This document shows positions 55,871-62,542 of a stretch of DNA of 64,000 nucleotides, in pieces; position 1 is the first letter of the stretch; each line of letters opens with the position of its first letter. Under the pieces are notes generated by a model. The model was not told where the DNA came from. It made no database searches and was given only the letters and a program-made list of their open reading frames with translations. The DNA is from Kiloniella majae (lineage in GTDB: Bacteria; Pseudomonadota; Alphaproteobacteria; Kiloniellales; Kiloniellaceae), in contig NZ_MTSZ01000001.1 in the NCBI RefSeq assembly GCF_002118315.1, positions 620,001 through 684,000 of the forward strand, written 5' to 3'. Position numbers and translations under genes: made by a program.

Positions 55871-56377
55871 GTGGGTTACGAACTGGATTTTAAAAACCTT
55901 GAATGCTGCATTGTCGACGATGAACCCTTTATCCAACGCATAGTTAAATCAATTCTCACATCTTTGGGGGTAAGAGACATCCGCATGGCTGGCGATGGTG
56001 CCGCCGGCTACAAGCTACTACAACGAAAACCCGCGGATCTTATTTTCATCGACTGGACCATGAAGCCTATTTCAGGCATCGACCTTGTCAAAAAAATCCG
56101 TGCATCCGATCAGAAAGAGATCGCAGAAATTCCCATTATCATGCTAACCGCCCACTCGGAACGTGAATACGTCGAACAAGCTGTCCTGGCCGGAGCAAAC
56201 GATTATCTGGTAAAGCCGGTATCCCCCAAACTTTTACGTCAACGCATCGAAGGTATATTTAAAACCCGCCTTCCCCTCAGCGAAGAAACCAGAAGGACAA
56301 AACCGAACAGGATTGTTCCGCCTTCGTCTAAGAAGGAAGATGATGATTTTCTGGAAATTTCAATTGAAGACGATTAA
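55871..56377 (+). CDS. CheY-like response regulator, GTG start
   Basis: Predicted 168-residue receiver-domain protein. The acidic pair is in CIVDDEPFIQ (about 14-18), the phospho-acceptor Asp in DLIFIDWTMKPISG (about 60), and the conserved Lys in NDYLVKPVSP (about 112). An acidic 45-residue tail follows the domain with no DNA-binding motif. It starts at GTG 55871. No histidine kinase is adjacent; the partner is unknown. Confidence 0.92.
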   Translation: MGYELDFKNLECCIVDDEPFIQRIVKSILTSLGVRDIRMAGDGAAGYKLLQRKPADLIFIDWTMKPISGIDLVKKIRASDQKEIAEIPIIMLTAHSEREYVEQAVLAGANDYLVKPVSPKLLRQRIEGIFKTRLPLSEETRRTKPNRIVPPSSKKEDDDFLEISIEDD

Positions 56378-56906: not shown

Positions 56907-57215
56907 ATTTTTATCCCCTCTAGGTTCAGATAGAAGCAATACTTGCGATGGTTTCCCCGGGATGGCTTCCTCGGCTCGCAGGCAATCACTTCAAATGTTA
57001 TCTATAACATAAAGCAGATCATACATACCCCCTACTGACACCATTATGTCAGTAGGTTTTCTATTTAAAATATTCCCTTCGCGCAGGACTTTAGCTATGG
57101 TGCATAACATCAAAACAACCTGTTCCAGACATCATCTAAAAACACCCGACAAGACACAGGGCGAAAACACAGACAGAAATGTTTGGCGCAGCAGCAAGTT
57201 TATTGGGGGATCACA

Positions 57216-58043
57216 GTGACCAAAAGTTCTTTACTACATGCAGGTTTGATTCTTTGCACTCTTACTCTCACCCCCATAGCGGTATCTGAAAGTAATGCAG
57301 ATGAATATAGCGATGCCGTTATTGCCTATGCGAAAGGTGATTATCAAACAGCGCTGAAGCTTTATGAATCTATTGCTGCAAATAAAGATCCTCTGTCCGC
57401 AGCAAAAGCCCAATACAGCATTGGACGCCTCTATTTACACGGACAGGGCGTTGAGAAAAATCTGGAAGAAGCTTTTGGCTGGACCCTAAAAGCCGCCAGA
57501 AACGAATATGCCCTTGCTCAGGACACAGTGGGCAATATGTACGCCCGGGGTATTGGCCGTCCAATGGATGGTGAAGAAGCCTATAAATGGTTTTTAAAGG
57601 CTGCCGAACAAGGTTATGCAAAGTCCCAATACAAACTTGGCTTTATGTATGCTGACGGCCTCGTTGTGCAGCAGGACCTAACCGCAGCTTATGAATGGTT
57701 CAAAAAATCTGCACGTCAAGGTTTTGCCGAAGCCATGTACAGTCTGGCTGTTGCCTATGACAACGGACAAGGCGTCAAATCAGATCCAGCCAAGGCAGCC
57801 AGGTGGTACCAAGAAGCCGCTCATAAGAACATTGCTGACGCCCAATATGAACTCAGCGTTCTGTTGCGCAAAGGACGCGGCCTTGAGCAAAATATTGTTG
57901 ATGCTTATAGCTGGGCTGAAATTGCGGGGCAAAACGGTGCCGATGGCAGTGCAGAACTCAAAGAAGAGTTGGCTAAGAAGATGACGTCAACGCAAATTTC
58001 CGATGCAGAAAGCAAAGCTCTTGAATGGATTGCCAGTCACTAG
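57216..58043 (+). CDS. exported Sel1-repeat protein, GTG start
   Basis: Predicted 275-residue protein with a signal peptide (about 1-28, hydrophobic LLHAGLILCTLTLTPIAVSESNA) and about five to six Sel1/TPR-like repeats (AAKAQYSIGRLYLHGQGV, EAYKWFLKAAEQGYAKSQYKLGFMYADGL, AARWYQEAAHKNIADAQYELSVLLRKGRG). Sel1 proteins act as protein-interaction scaffolds. The start is the GTG at 57216 after GGGGGATCACA rather than TTG at 57183. A similar protein lies at 61703. Confidence 0.87.
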   Translation: MTKSSLLHAGLILCTLTLTPIAVSESNADEYSDAVIAYAKGDYQTALKLYESIAANKDPLSAAKAQYSIGRLYLHGQGVEKNLEEAFGWTLKAARNEYALAQDTVGNMYARGIGRPMDGEEAYKWFLKAAEQGYAKSQYKLGFMYADGLVVQQDLTAAYEWFKKSARQGFAEAMYSLAVAYDNGQGVKSDPAKAARWYQEAAHKNIADAQYELSVLLRKGRGLEQNIVDAYSWAEIAGQNGADGSAELKEELAKKMTSTQISDAESKALEWIASH

Positions 58044-58330
58044 CAACGACCACTCAAATATAAGTGGTATTAAGGACAAGAAAGAGAAGAAGTACGATAA
58101 TACCCCTGTCCATACCTTCAAATAAACCACACATATAGACAAAATATATGGAATATTTAAGGATTTCAGCCCCGAAAAAGACCGAGTCCACATAAATTCC
58201 AAATGTTTATTTCACATGGAATTGTTGTAATAACAACTTTGGATATAATATAACTGGTATTATATTTTTAAAATTACACATATAAATCAATGCAATACAT
58301 AAAATCACACACCCTCTATAAGTGTAGAGA

Positions 58331-58455
58331 TTTTTTCACGCTTTTTTCACTCCACATATTTCCAAAAAACGTGTTCAATACTCCCACGCAAGCAACTTAT
58401 CCCGATTTCTGAAGCGCTCGCACTGCGCACCATCTTAATCAGAAATCGGGATTTG
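58331..58455 (+). ncRNA. RNA-like element 1
   Basis: Starts with TTTTTTCACGC-TTTTTTCACTC, an AATACT -10-like box at 58377-58382 and the word GCAAGCAACTT (58388-58398), then a perfect 14-bp stem (ATCCCGATTTCTGA at 58399-58412 with TCAGAAATCGGGAT at 58439-58452). Inside is a small GCGC/GCGC stem (58414-58417, 58425-58428). It is probably transcribed on the + strand from about 58388. See element 2; the leader is shared but the stem sequence is not. Confidence 0.5.
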
Positions 58456-58697
58456 CTTATTTCCCGAAGAATAGAGTAATCCAAGCTACTGCCATCTTTT
58501 GAGCAGGTTGCCTTAGATATCTTTTATAGCTTCTTTAAAAATTTCATTCCGATTAATTTATAGTCGCACCCGTTTGCGATTAATTCTGCTATTATTAGCT
58601 TCTGGTATTATGAATTTAGCACCTTTGCTTTTCATAACTTTCAAGAAATGAGTGACTGAATCGCATAAATATCCCTCATATACGCGATTGAACTTTT

Positions 58698-58725
58698 TAC
58701 CGTGAATTGTTTTTCACGGTCTTTT
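58698..58725 (+). terminator. terminator-like hairpin between the RNA elements
   Basis: ACCGTGAA-TTGTTT-TTCACGGT followed by CTTTT. It may end a transcript from element 1; it also forms part of element 2's upstream motif. Confidence 0.5.
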
Positions 58726-58830
58726 CACTCACACTTTAGGTCGAAATTAGGTTTATATACTCATGCAAGCAACTTCCCCCGAACTGACAAAGCGTTCCTT
58801 TTGCACCACGCGATGTCAGTTCGGGGGTCG
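58708..58830 (+). ncRNA. RNA-like element 2
   Basis: A second copy about 375 bases downstream: TTTTTCACGG-TCTTTTCACTC, a TATACT box at 58756-58761, the identical GCAAGCAACTT word (58765-58775), then a different perfect 14-bp stem (CCCCCGAACTGACA at 58776-58789 with TGTCAGTTCGGGGG at 58814-58827) and an inner GCGT/ACGC stem (58792-58795, 58808-58811). A preceding terminator-like ACCGTGAA...TTCACGGT hairpin overlaps its upstream motif. Confidence 0.5.
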
Positions 58831-59121
58831 TATTAAGTTATATACTTAACTTGGTTTTACTCTGCCTGTTATATTTTGGCTTTGCTTGCTGTTTTATTTT
58901 GGTCACTTCCTGAGTGACCCATTTCAGTACGATTTATTTCAGTACATAGCCGATATTATTTTATCGGCACACCCTGAACTAGCCTTACCCGGCCGGCAAT
59001 TTATTTGCCTGCTTTTTGACTCTTGTTGACTTTGTTAGGGGGACAAATTCAGCAAGGGTCATTTTTTTATGTTTTAATCAAAACCTATATTCAGCAGGGC
59101 TTTAACCTCAAACGATTTCAT

Positions 59122-59157
59122 AAAAAAGCCTGAGATTTATTTATCTCAGGCTTTTTT
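59122..59157 (-). terminator. bidirectional rho-independent terminator
   Basis: AAAAAAGCCTGAGAT-N6-ATCTCAGGCTTTTTT, perfect 15-bp stem with six-base A and T flanks, 23 bases beyond the stop of the siderophore-interacting protein gene. Confidence 0.92.
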
Positions 59158-59179
59158 AATTCTCTGCTGTAGAAAAAGA

Positions 59180-59959
59180 CTAGGCCGCGGCCATGCGTTT
59201 TTGGATTTGGTGCGCATCCTCTTCCAAACCAATTTTCCAATAGGCCGATACATAGGTATCTTCCTTTGGAATTCCGCGTTCTTGGTAAAGGTGCGTGCGC
59301 AGTTCTTTCACCACGCCGGACTCACCGGCAACAAAAACGCTTGGGTACCCGGGACGCCACCGCATCTTTCTGATGAAATCACTTTGCTGGTAACTTCTTT
59401 GTTTCGGGTTCTCATGGACCAGCCAGTGAATGTCTATACCAACAGGCGCATCTATAATTTGCTGATCATCTTCCGACGTGACCTCAAAAACAGCAGTCCC
59501 CACAGCATCTTTTGGCAGCTCTTCCAAGGCCGCAGCCGCAGCCGGGATTGCTGTCATGTCGGCAGCAAGCAAGAACCAGTCAGCATCAAGGTAAGTCATC
59601 TTCTTAGGGCCAGGGCCAAAGAGCCCGATATAATCTCCTGGTAAAGCAGCTTGTGCCCAATTACTCGCAGGCCCACCATCGCCATGAATGGCAAAGTCAA
59701 TATCAAGCTCATTCTCATCGGCTCGATGATGACGTATCGTATAGGTTCGCATTACCGGACGCAGACCATCTACAATCTCTGCAACGAATTCGGCTGGGTC
59801 AATATCTCCCTGCGGGATCAAGACCTTCACATGCGCGCCTTCCTGATTTTCAGGAAACCCATGTAGGCCAACTCCACTAAATGTCACGCGTAACATATGT
59901 GGCGTAAGCTGTTCCTTACGAACAACAGTTAAAATTCTCGGCGGTTTACGCTTACTCAT
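59180..59959 (-). CDS. siderophore-interacting protein (ferric-siderophore reductase)
   Basis: Predicted 259-residue cytosolic flavoprotein of the SIP family (ViuB/YqjH type), which reduces Fe(III)-siderophores with NAD(P)H to release iron. The FAD-binding motif is RTYTIRHHR (about 71-79), and the NAD(P)-binding half begins DADWFLLAADMTAIPAAAAALEEL. The C-terminal SAYWKIGLEEDAH is family-typical. A Fur-like palindrome lies 171 bases upstream. No siderophore biosynthesis or uptake genes are present in the window. Confidence 0.93.
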   Translation of the reverse strand: MSKRKPPRILTVVRKEQLTPHMLRVTFSGVGLHGFPENQEGAHVKVLIPQGDIDPAEFVAEIVDGLRPVMRTYTIRHHRADENELDIDFAIHGDGGPASNWAQAALPGDYIGLFGPGPKKMTYLDADWFLLAADMTAIPAAAAALEELPKDAVGTAVFEVTSEDDQQIIDAPVGIDIHWLVHENPKQRSYQQSDFIRKMRWRPGYPSVFVAGESGVVKELRTHLYQERGIPKEDTYVSAYWKIGLEEDAHQIQKRMAAA

Positions 59960-61702: not shown

Positions 61703-62542
61703 ATGGATTTACGAAAACGAATGACCCCACAATTCAAACTTCGCCTTTCCTTCTACCTCTTTGCGCTATGGGCAATATTTCTTATTACGCCTCAAATATC
61801 AGATGCTGGCGATTATGAAGATGGCATTGCTGCTTACCGGGCCGGGGAATATGGCAAAGCCATCGAATTGTTAAGCAATGCAGGAAATCAGGGAAATGCA
61901 AAGGCCCAGTATTATCTCAGCGTACTTTATGAAGGTGGATCAGGGATAGACAAAGACATGGAAGCATCTCTGAACTGGCTCAAACGCGCCGCAGAGGGTG
62001 GTATGGTCGAGGCTCAGCGCAATCTGGGAGCTTTTTTCCACGATGATATCGACGATCCGGATGACGATATTGATCAGGCGATCTATTGGTATCAACGCGC
62101 AGCAAGCCAGGGAGATCTGACGGGGCAATTACGCCTTGGCATTCTGCTGGATAGAGAGAAAGACACCACCTTTGATCATCGCGAAGCCATCCGTTGGTAT
62201 CTGCTCGCAGCACGACAAGGGGTTGCACAGGCACAGCACAACTTGGGAGTTATGCACAGTCAGGGGCGCGGCACCCCTGTTAATCCGGATAAAGCACTAG
62301 ACTGGTTCTTTAAGGCAGCAAAACAACGTTACACAAATGCGATGGTCGCCATCGGAGAAACATATCTTGCAGGTAAGGGCGTTCCCCAATCAAATGTCGA
62401 GGCCTATAAATGGTTTCAACTCGCCGATATCAATGGTCATGAGACCATCGCCCGGCAAATGAAGGAAATCGCCGCAGACCTGACCAGTGAACAAATCAGA
62501 CAGGCCGAGCATTCTGCAAATGTATGGCTCACAGAAAACTGA
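61703..62542 (+). CDS. exported Sel1-repeat protein
   Basis: Predicted 279-residue protein. A signal peptide follows a basic N-terminus (LRLSFYLFALWAIFLITPQISDA, about 12-34). Five to six Sel1 repeats follow (NAKAQYYLSVLYEGGSGID, LNWLKRAAEGGMVEAQRNLGAFF, IRWYLLAARQGVAQAQHNLGVMHSQGRG), with an acidic DDIDDPDDDID loop. Like the gene at 57216 it starts with AY(R/K)xGxY and ends with a similar EAYKWFQLADINGHETIARQMKEIA segment; the two are diverged relatives. Periplasmic scaffold; partner unknown. Confidence 0.88.
   Translation: MDLRKRMTPQFKLRLSFYLFALWAIFLITPQISDAGDYEDGIAAYRAGEYGKAIELLSNAGNQGNAKAQYYLSVLYEGGSGIDKDMEASLNWLKRAAEGGMVEAQRNLGAFFHDDIDDPDDDIDQAIYWYQRAASQGDLTGQLRLGILLDREKDTTFDHREAIRWYLLAARQGVAQAQHNLGVMHSQGRGTPVNPDKALDWFFKAAKQRYTNAMVAIGETYLAGKGVPQSNVEAYKWFQLADINGHETIARQMKEIAADLTSEQIRQAEHSANVWLTEN

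Follow-up and report, generated by a model that had tools for sequence, protein, structure and literature searches.

Two related elements, very probably small RNA genes, in one intergenic region of Kiloniella majae

The 64,000 nucleotides of Kiloniella majae DNA analysed here (the window) very probably contain two related small non-coding RNA genes, termed E1 and E2, which have apparently been kept through evolution by their folded shape. According to the reading that we prefer, to which we give a probability of about 0.74, they encode sibling small RNAs of one regulon, of the same kind as OmrA/OmrB or AbcR1/2 and forming a family of their own. On comparative grounds, we are confident that E1 and E2 are RNA genes of the plus strand. 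A sequence-only reading of this DNA had proposed a pair of small regulatory RNAs; homologues, covariation and a conserved leader now speak for such a pair, its transcription being a prediction. E1 and E2, homologous and probably non-coding, share a single intergenic region, which is the arrangement of tandem sibling sRNAs.

Layout and distribution of the two elements

E1 (58332-58463) and E2 (from 58710) are located on the plus strand of the gap between a Sel1-repeat gene (57183-58043, plus strand) and a gene for a siderophore-interacting protein (SIP; 59180-59959, minus strand), which is read from the opposite strand and lies on the 3' side of E2. A second Sel1 gene is found in the window at 61703-62542. 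The only listed open reading frame of at least 60 amino acids in the gap is a 71-aa TTG-started frame on the minus strand that overlaps the end of the Sel1 gene; the gap contains no convincing open reading frame. Common to both elements are a TTTTCAC-N4-TTTTCAC direct repeat (11-bp spacing), a -10-like box separated from the repeats by a spacer of 21 bases in each element, an 11-mer and a perfect 14-bp stem, and 86 of 149 aligned letters are identical when the promoters are included. The parts named in the sequence-only reading (direct repeats, identical 11-mer, 14-bp stems and inner stems) are all present in the sequence; the range 58331-58830 given there was too short, as the conserved E2 RNA reaches to about 59068. 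The individual features are as follows.

58332-58352, plus strand: E1 activator-site candidate, TTTTTCACG CTT TTTTCACTC, two TTTTCAC repeats 11 bp apart
58374-58381, plus strand: predicted E1 -10-like box, TTCAATAC
58388-58398, plus strand: E1 11-mer GCAAGCAACTT, predicted 5' end of the E1 RNA
58399-58412 / 58439-58452, plus strand: E1 outer stem, 14 bp, perfect
58414-58428, plus strand: E1 inner GCGC hairpin, with ACCATCTTAA unpaired inside the E1 stem-loop 58399-58452
58388-58463, plus strand: predicted E1 small RNA, about 75 nt, from the end of conservation and model R2
58699-58730, plus strand: E2 activator-site candidate, made up of the 11-bp direct repeat 58710-58730 and, upstream of it, an inverted half-site (CGTGA...TTTTTCACG)
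58752-58760, plus strand: predicted E2 -10-like box, TTTATATAC
58765-58775, plus strand: E2 11-mer GCAAGCAACTT, identical to the E1 11-mer
58776-58789 / 58814-58827, plus strand: E2 outer stem, 14 bp, perfect, plus an inner GCGT/ACGC stem
58762-59068, plus strand: predicted long RNA of E2, about 300 nt with several hairpins, from model R1
59017-59068, plus strand: predicted E2 intrinsic terminator, TGACTCTTGTTGA.../...TCAGCAAGGGTCA, loop UAGGGGG, then TTTTTTT

The predicted 3' end of the E1 RNA, where conservation stops, consists of the E1 hairpin, TTTGCTT and a T-rich tail; the T-runs of the window and of genome G004 are weak. Conservation of E2 continues for about 240 nt past its first hairpin and through several further hairpins, up to a terminator-like hairpin with a UAGGGGG loop, TGACTCTTGTTGACTTTGTTAGGGGGACAAATTCAGCAAGGGTCA and seven T at 59062-59068. 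The stretch taken earlier as the second element forms only the 5' module of a longer conserved RNA, predicted to measure about 300 nt and to end in a terminator at 59017-59068; this terminator-like end is strong. A shorter E2 end near 59010-59020, where the hairpin 58995-59009 is followed by TGCTTTTTGA, is possible. The predicted terminators were not listed by a simple consensus scan, as their loops exceed its limit.

Relatives of the elements in the genus Kiloniella (Alphaproteobacteria) were first picked up by pattern and BLAST searches. Two covariance models were used, R2 representing E1 with its promoter and R1 the long E2. E1 is present in six and E2 in five of the nine genomes of the genus. 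Among 61 genomes of the order, R2 matches were obtained in six, all of them within the genus, and among 23 genomes of the family R1 identified the long E2 in five (five of the nine of the genus) with E values of 1e-78 or better; 55-80 candidates were scored per genome where more existed, so that remote relatives could be missed. R2 also picks up all five E2 copies, with E values of 3e-7 to 6e-5, from which we conclude that E1 and E2 are homologous, and it finds only two copies per genome. We set aside an R1 match in a sixth genome of the family (G021, E 0.083), a match antisense to the same hairpin in G001 (E 0.0014) and an 11-mer match in G040. In a species collection that may lack the window's own genome or a very near one, a pattern combining promoter and 11-mer matched 33 stretches. 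Five of these stretches (four Kiloniella records and one MAG) are supported by R2, the best of the other 28 reaching an E value of 0.32. The records bearing the elements are Kiloniella sp. EL199, K. spongiae, K. litopenaei, an uncultured Kiloniella MAG and an uncultured Rhodospirillales MAG. No match to the elements was obtained in the phages and plasmids searched.

The 11-mer is identical in ten of 11 copies, i.e. in all five E2 and in five of six E1 copies, the E1 11-mer of G005 ending in G. TTTCACG in the first repeat and TTTTTCACTC in the second are kept in all six E1 copies, and the E2 activator-site candidate is kept in all five E2 copies and largely also in the remnant of G008. Across five genomes (G008 omitted), the mean pairwise identity amounts to 0.93 for the E1 RNA, 0.82 for the E2 promoter and 0.78 for the E2 RNA, as compared to 0.315 for the spacer 58461-58697 and 0.39 for the upstream stretch 57968-58189. 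In these alignments, E1 and E2 are conserved islands around an unalignable spacer. A moderately conserved block at 58190-58260 (mean identity 0.57, against 0.39 further upstream), about 130-200 bp upstream of the E1 start and with a core like TTGNATACAATATA in several relatives, is possibly another promoter or a regulator site.

The SIP gene adjoins the elements in all six bearers. The window's Sel1 gene is not found beside E1 in G005 and G001, the two genomes whose wider neighbourhoods were read, arguing that the RNA genes are independent of one upstream gene. Neither E1 nor E2 was detected by R1 and R2 in G002 and G003 (both 100% complete) or in G006 (77% complete). In G002 a Sel1-repeat gene (L090 215-1483) abuts the SIP gene, leaving no room for the elements, and in G003 a similar-looking gene, as read by eye, stands directly beside the SIP gene. 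G008 has an intact E1 and a degraded E2, in which only the promoter repeats are left and the 11-mer, the hairpin and the long RNA have been lost together; on its contig C36 (L025 3-1166, L088) the E2 promoter remnant is separated from the SIP gene by a subtilase gene (PF00082).

Folding and covariation of the stems

As plus-strand RNA, the hairpins of E1 and E2 reach z values of -5.1 and -7.2, respectively, and none of 200 dinucleotide shuffles is as stable. On the minus strand the same hairpins (z -3.6 for E1 and -6.5 for E2) are likewise below all 200 shuffles. Since both strands fold well, folding alone does not assign the strand. A perfect stem of at least 14 bp was found in none of 100 dinucleotide shuffles of 58044-59160, the longest one having 12 bp.

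The sequence-only reading had stated that the outer stems of E1 and E2 differ at most positions while remaining paired. The difference is real and all of it is compensatory; it concerns seven of the 14 pairs, i.e. half of them and not most. A covariation of the inner stem from GCGC/GCGC to GCGT/ACGC, also stated there, is a loose description, the two stems being out of register with loops of 7 and 12 nt. The joint E1 and E2 alignment of 11 copies misaligns the E2 inner stem, contains no two-sided change of the inner stem and does not support its joint covariation; within E1 the inner stem is invariant, and within E2 there is one two-sided change.

In a covariation test, the related Kiloniella copies keep both the leader and the pairing of the stem, and a copy with a kept leader and lost stem pairing is absent among the 11 full copies. 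With E1 alone, five of the 14 outer pairs are changed on both sides and 98.8% of the outer-stem cells are paired. In the 11-copy alignment, which is biased in favour of the model because it was fitted to it, two-sided changes are seen in 11 of the 14 outer pairs and 98.7% of the cells are paired. The covariation score of the whole structure is 0.447, as compared to 0.184 after shuffling, and 0.447 was reached in none of 500 shuffles; these shuffles do not keep relatedness, the copies are few (six E1, five E2) and related, and the shuffle fraction is not a probability. Pairing falls to 30-47% when the partners are slid as a control. In E1, AAGCAA within the 11-mer can also pair with TTGCTT at 58453-58458. 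This extension is invariant among the E1 copies and partly lost at the corresponding place in E2, so that covariation provides no support for it.

The type of mismatch distinguishes the strands. In the outer stem of the 11 copies there are nine G-U cells against one A-C cell, and the E2 terminator helix contains 13 G-U, no A-C and two other non-paired cells among 95. The middle helices of E2 (13 G-U, 8 A-C, 8 other) carry a weaker strand signal. The excess of G-U over A-C argues for the plus strand as the RNA strand.

For the whole E2 fold, seven of 82 pairs show two-sided changes, a number reached by 13 of 500 shuffles, and 94.8% of the cells are paired, a share that drops to 80-88% in four of the middle helices. 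About 110 nt downstream of the E2 11-mer lies a conserved TTGCTTGC, with which the 11-mer is predicted to pair, closing a junction. This helix 1, formed by the 11-mer and UUGCUUGC, has 95% of its cells paired and no two-sided change. The 11-mer is thus predicted to be paired, not free, in both E1 and E2, and judging from the modelled folds the 5' tag may be structural, or a seed released on binding, or both.

Promoter and candidate activator

A -10-like box is present, as had been read from the letters alone; the AATACT proposed for E1 is not conserved, the conserved core being TTCAATA, which is identical in the -10 region of all six copies. A simple consensus scan returned no sigma-70-type promoter at the start of E1 or E2. 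The E2 promoter contains a palindrome at 58699-58720. Two direct repeats about 11 bp apart ahead of a -10 box were found at 11 promoters of the predicted small RNAs, at one remnant and at four promoters of protein genes, where a similar box and spacing precede RTX and peroxidase genes.

G004, L196 373-2109: RTX-repeat protein gene (PF00353) with an E1/E2-type promoter
G006, L097 1501: gene with an E1/E2-type promoter, first residues resembling the RTX gene of G004, its repeats unseen
G008, L195: gene for a 368-aa protein without Pfam match, same promoter layout (positions 2788 and 14915 mark the two promoters on this one contig)
G008, L195: animal-type haem peroxidase gene (PF03098), same promoter layout, same contig as the gene for the 368-aa protein

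Since these protein genes share the promoter and have no GCAAGCAACTT behind it, the 11-mer belongs to the RNA and not to the promoter. The same layout and spacing at protein genes also strengthens the earlier proposal of a single activator, and we consider it likely that one activator drives both E1 and E2. Direct repeats about 11 bp apart upstream of a -10 box are the typical layout of OmpR/PhoB-type response regulators. By analogy, the 11-bp direct repeat suggests a regulator of this type as the activator. A receiver-only response regulator encoded at 55871-56377 was rejected for this role, no DNA-binding domain having been found in it.

With up to two mismatches, a 20-base repeat pattern gave 59 matches in the nine genomes, 12 of which are E1, E2 or the remnant; as the reversed control gave 36, most of the other matches are due to chance. 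The remaining promoter matches that were read comprise 12 loci (11 from the 20-base search and L032) plus one further stretch. In the window's own genome, a repeat search allowing three mismatches resulted in eight matches, six of them besides E1 and E2, against one in the control. A spaced promoter pattern matched 12 times in eight of the 23 family genomes, as compared to five times for the reversed control, and these matches include eight at E1 or E2, two at RTX-type genes, one at a gene of unknown type and one in G014 that was dropped as probably due to chance. In the window's genome this pattern matches E1 only, E2 being missed because its box reads TATA. A tighter promoter pattern gave three matches and none in the control; it was devised after the matches had been seen and is not independent of them.

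Function, alternative explanations and known systems

In the mechanism that we favour, of which transcription, activator class, base-pairing function and targets are what we infer, one activator would bind the two TTTTCAC repeats, one helical turn apart and about 40-60 bp upstream of the start. E1 would yield an RNA of about 75 nt in which the 5' tag GCAAGCAACUU is followed by a long hairpin doubling as an intrinsic terminator, and E2 one of about 300 nt, in which this tag is followed by a homologous first hairpin, more hairpins and a terminator of its own. Both RNAs would most likely act in trans, pairing with mRNAs via the shared 5' tag and the conserved loops, and a signal inducing certain surface or secreted proteins would thereby also silence or tune other genes. 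As to the mode of action of E1 and E2 itself, we lean towards base-pairing.

Searches for mRNA targets were performed in several ways. Exact complements of the 11-mer yielded no conserved match at a gene start in the genus genomes: there are 34 matches in eight of the nine genomes, ten of them E1 or E2 themselves, and loci were available for 30 of the 34. The orthologous places among them (L137/L157 and L141/L147) are each limited to two genomes and have no ATG start, and in G004 alone a match (L150) is found 15 bases after a possible ATG start. Genomes with and without E1 contain the loop complement AGATGGTGCGCA equally often; with at most one mismatch it has 22 and 26 matches in G002 and G003, respectively, which lack E1, and 22-40 in the six genomes that have it. 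Five duplex trials of E1 or E2 with RTX, peroxidase, unknown-gene and S8 mRNAs gave no value clearly better than shuffles of the same base composition, 19, 111, 83, 120 and 145 of 200 of which reach it. Because real seeds are short, these failed searches neither support nor exclude base-pairing.

A more far-reaching view, which we regard as doubtful, is that E2 is the founder of a new class of structured RNAs of about 300 nt, E1 a stripped-down competitor or decoy, and the RTX and haem peroxidase genes part of an undescribed regulon. The 5' tag would, as part of the same doubtful view, close a multi-branch junction, the terminator would present a conserved UAGGGGGA loop, and E1 would keep the tag and the first hairpin.

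We think it unlikely that E1 and E2 are real RNAs which bind and titrate a protein in the manner of 6S or CsrB instead of pairing with mRNAs; the binding sites would be the first hairpin, common to both, and the GGGGG-loop hairpin of E2. The length of E2 and its many hairpins would fit such a function, as would a common hairpin that varies in sequence and keeps its shape, an 11-mer predicted to be paired in both elements, and target searches yielding no conserved mRNA. However, the apical AGCGCUCGCACUGCGC and CAUCU of E1 are invariant in all six copies and differ from the E2 loop, which is not what one shared protein site would predict, and no Rfam family is matched at its gathering score.

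The possibility that the hairpins are cis-acting leaders or attenuators controlling read-through into downstream genes is very small. Both elements do begin with a promoter and a terminator-like hairpin, and in G008 the subtilase gene follows the E2 promoter remnant; nevertheless, no conserved plus-strand gene lies downstream, the low identity of the spacer 58461-58697 being in line with this, and the gene after E2 is on the opposite strand. Selection of the stems as DNA inverted repeats, in recombination or protein-binding palindromes or in remnants of mobile elements, appears slightly more remote still. Perfect inverted repeats are strand-symmetric, both strands fold well and the E2 promoter has its palindrome, yet the outer stem favours G-U over A-C by 9 to 1, the aligned copies run from a promoter to a terminator-like end, the place beside the SIP gene is fixed in all bearers, the E1 model finds only two copies per genome, and phages and plasmids are without a match. 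We reject a small peptide encoded by E2, from the ATG at 58763 (MQATSPELTKRS...) or from a TTG-started frame in the long RNA, as scarcely credible: although all five copies keep the ATG together with the first six residues (MQATSP) and each has TTG-started frames of 20-50 aa, the ATG frame is conserved only in these residues, which represent the 11-mer, and runs for 28, 16, 28, 23 and 23 aa, being cut by a stop in G004 and shifted in frame in G007 and G005, E1 has ACG in place of the ATG, and the TTG frames vary in position and length between species. The E1 RNA contains no open reading frame of at least 15 aa.

The sibling small RNAs that we favour resemble known tandem pairs in part. OmrA and OmrB of the Enterobacterales, of 88 and 82 nt, are tandem siblings under the control of EnvZ/OmpR, with the first 21 and the last 35 nt nearly identical (PMC4211561, PMC12692685). 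E1 and E2 are likewise arranged in tandem with one proposed activator, a shared 5' end and different middles; unlike in OmrA/OmrB, they share a tag and a hairpin shape while their 3' ends differ and E2 is about four times longer. In A. tumefaciens and S. meliloti, AbcR1 and AbcR2 of the Rhizobiales are tandem neighbours within a single intergenic region (PMC4211561, PMC3712013, PMC7486931), and E1 and E2 also form an alphaproteobacterial tandem pair. The AbcRs of S. meliloti are more than 80% identical (PMC4211561), in contrast to the 86 of 149 letters of E1 and E2 with their promoters, and the AbcR regulator VtlR is a LysR protein, whereas the E1/E2 site is a direct repeat. PrrF1 and PrrF2 of Pseudomonas aeruginosa are tandem siblings of iron homeostasis with 95% identity (PMC4211561). 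An iron-related gene, that of the siderophore-interacting protein, adjoins E1 and E2 as well; unlike those of PrrF, however, their promoters are built around TTTTCAC repeats, with no Fur-like box visible by eye. Their place next to the SIP gene does not by itself speak for a role in iron metabolism. The peculiarity of E1 and E2 is the inequality of the siblings.

With the two elements, a marine alphaproteobacterial genus would gain a pair of sibling small RNAs that fall into no Rfam family. With about 75 and 300 nt and a common 5' tag, hairpin shape and promoter, the unequal siblings are a natural experiment on the role of the shared module and on the contribution of the extra 225 nt of E2, and the shared promoter is a concrete lead to an activator tying small RNAs to RTX and peroxidase genes. 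A text search of the literature for Kiloniella together with small RNA, and for the 11-mer, with subscription journals mostly outside its scope, revealed no earlier description; the former led to work on fasting and gut microbiota in a pipefish, the latter to nothing.

Rfam, searched with the whole 64 kb, gave no family at its gathering score. The Rfam scans of the window identified neither the OmrA/OmrB nor the AbcR covariance model; the latter family is listed in Rfam by a different name. A permissive scan of 58300-59180 returned 19 weak matches, none of them to an Omr family. All 19 are below the gathering scores and were rejected as due to chance, including F6 on the E2 hairpin (18.1 bits against a cut-off of 46) and SNORA14 starting on E1 (16.1 against 36). 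Fourteen of the 19 overlap the terminator stretch 59112-59180. In the gap between E2 and the SIP gene, a 16-bp perfect inverted repeat at 59121-59158, flanked by A and T runs, is a probable bidirectional terminator.
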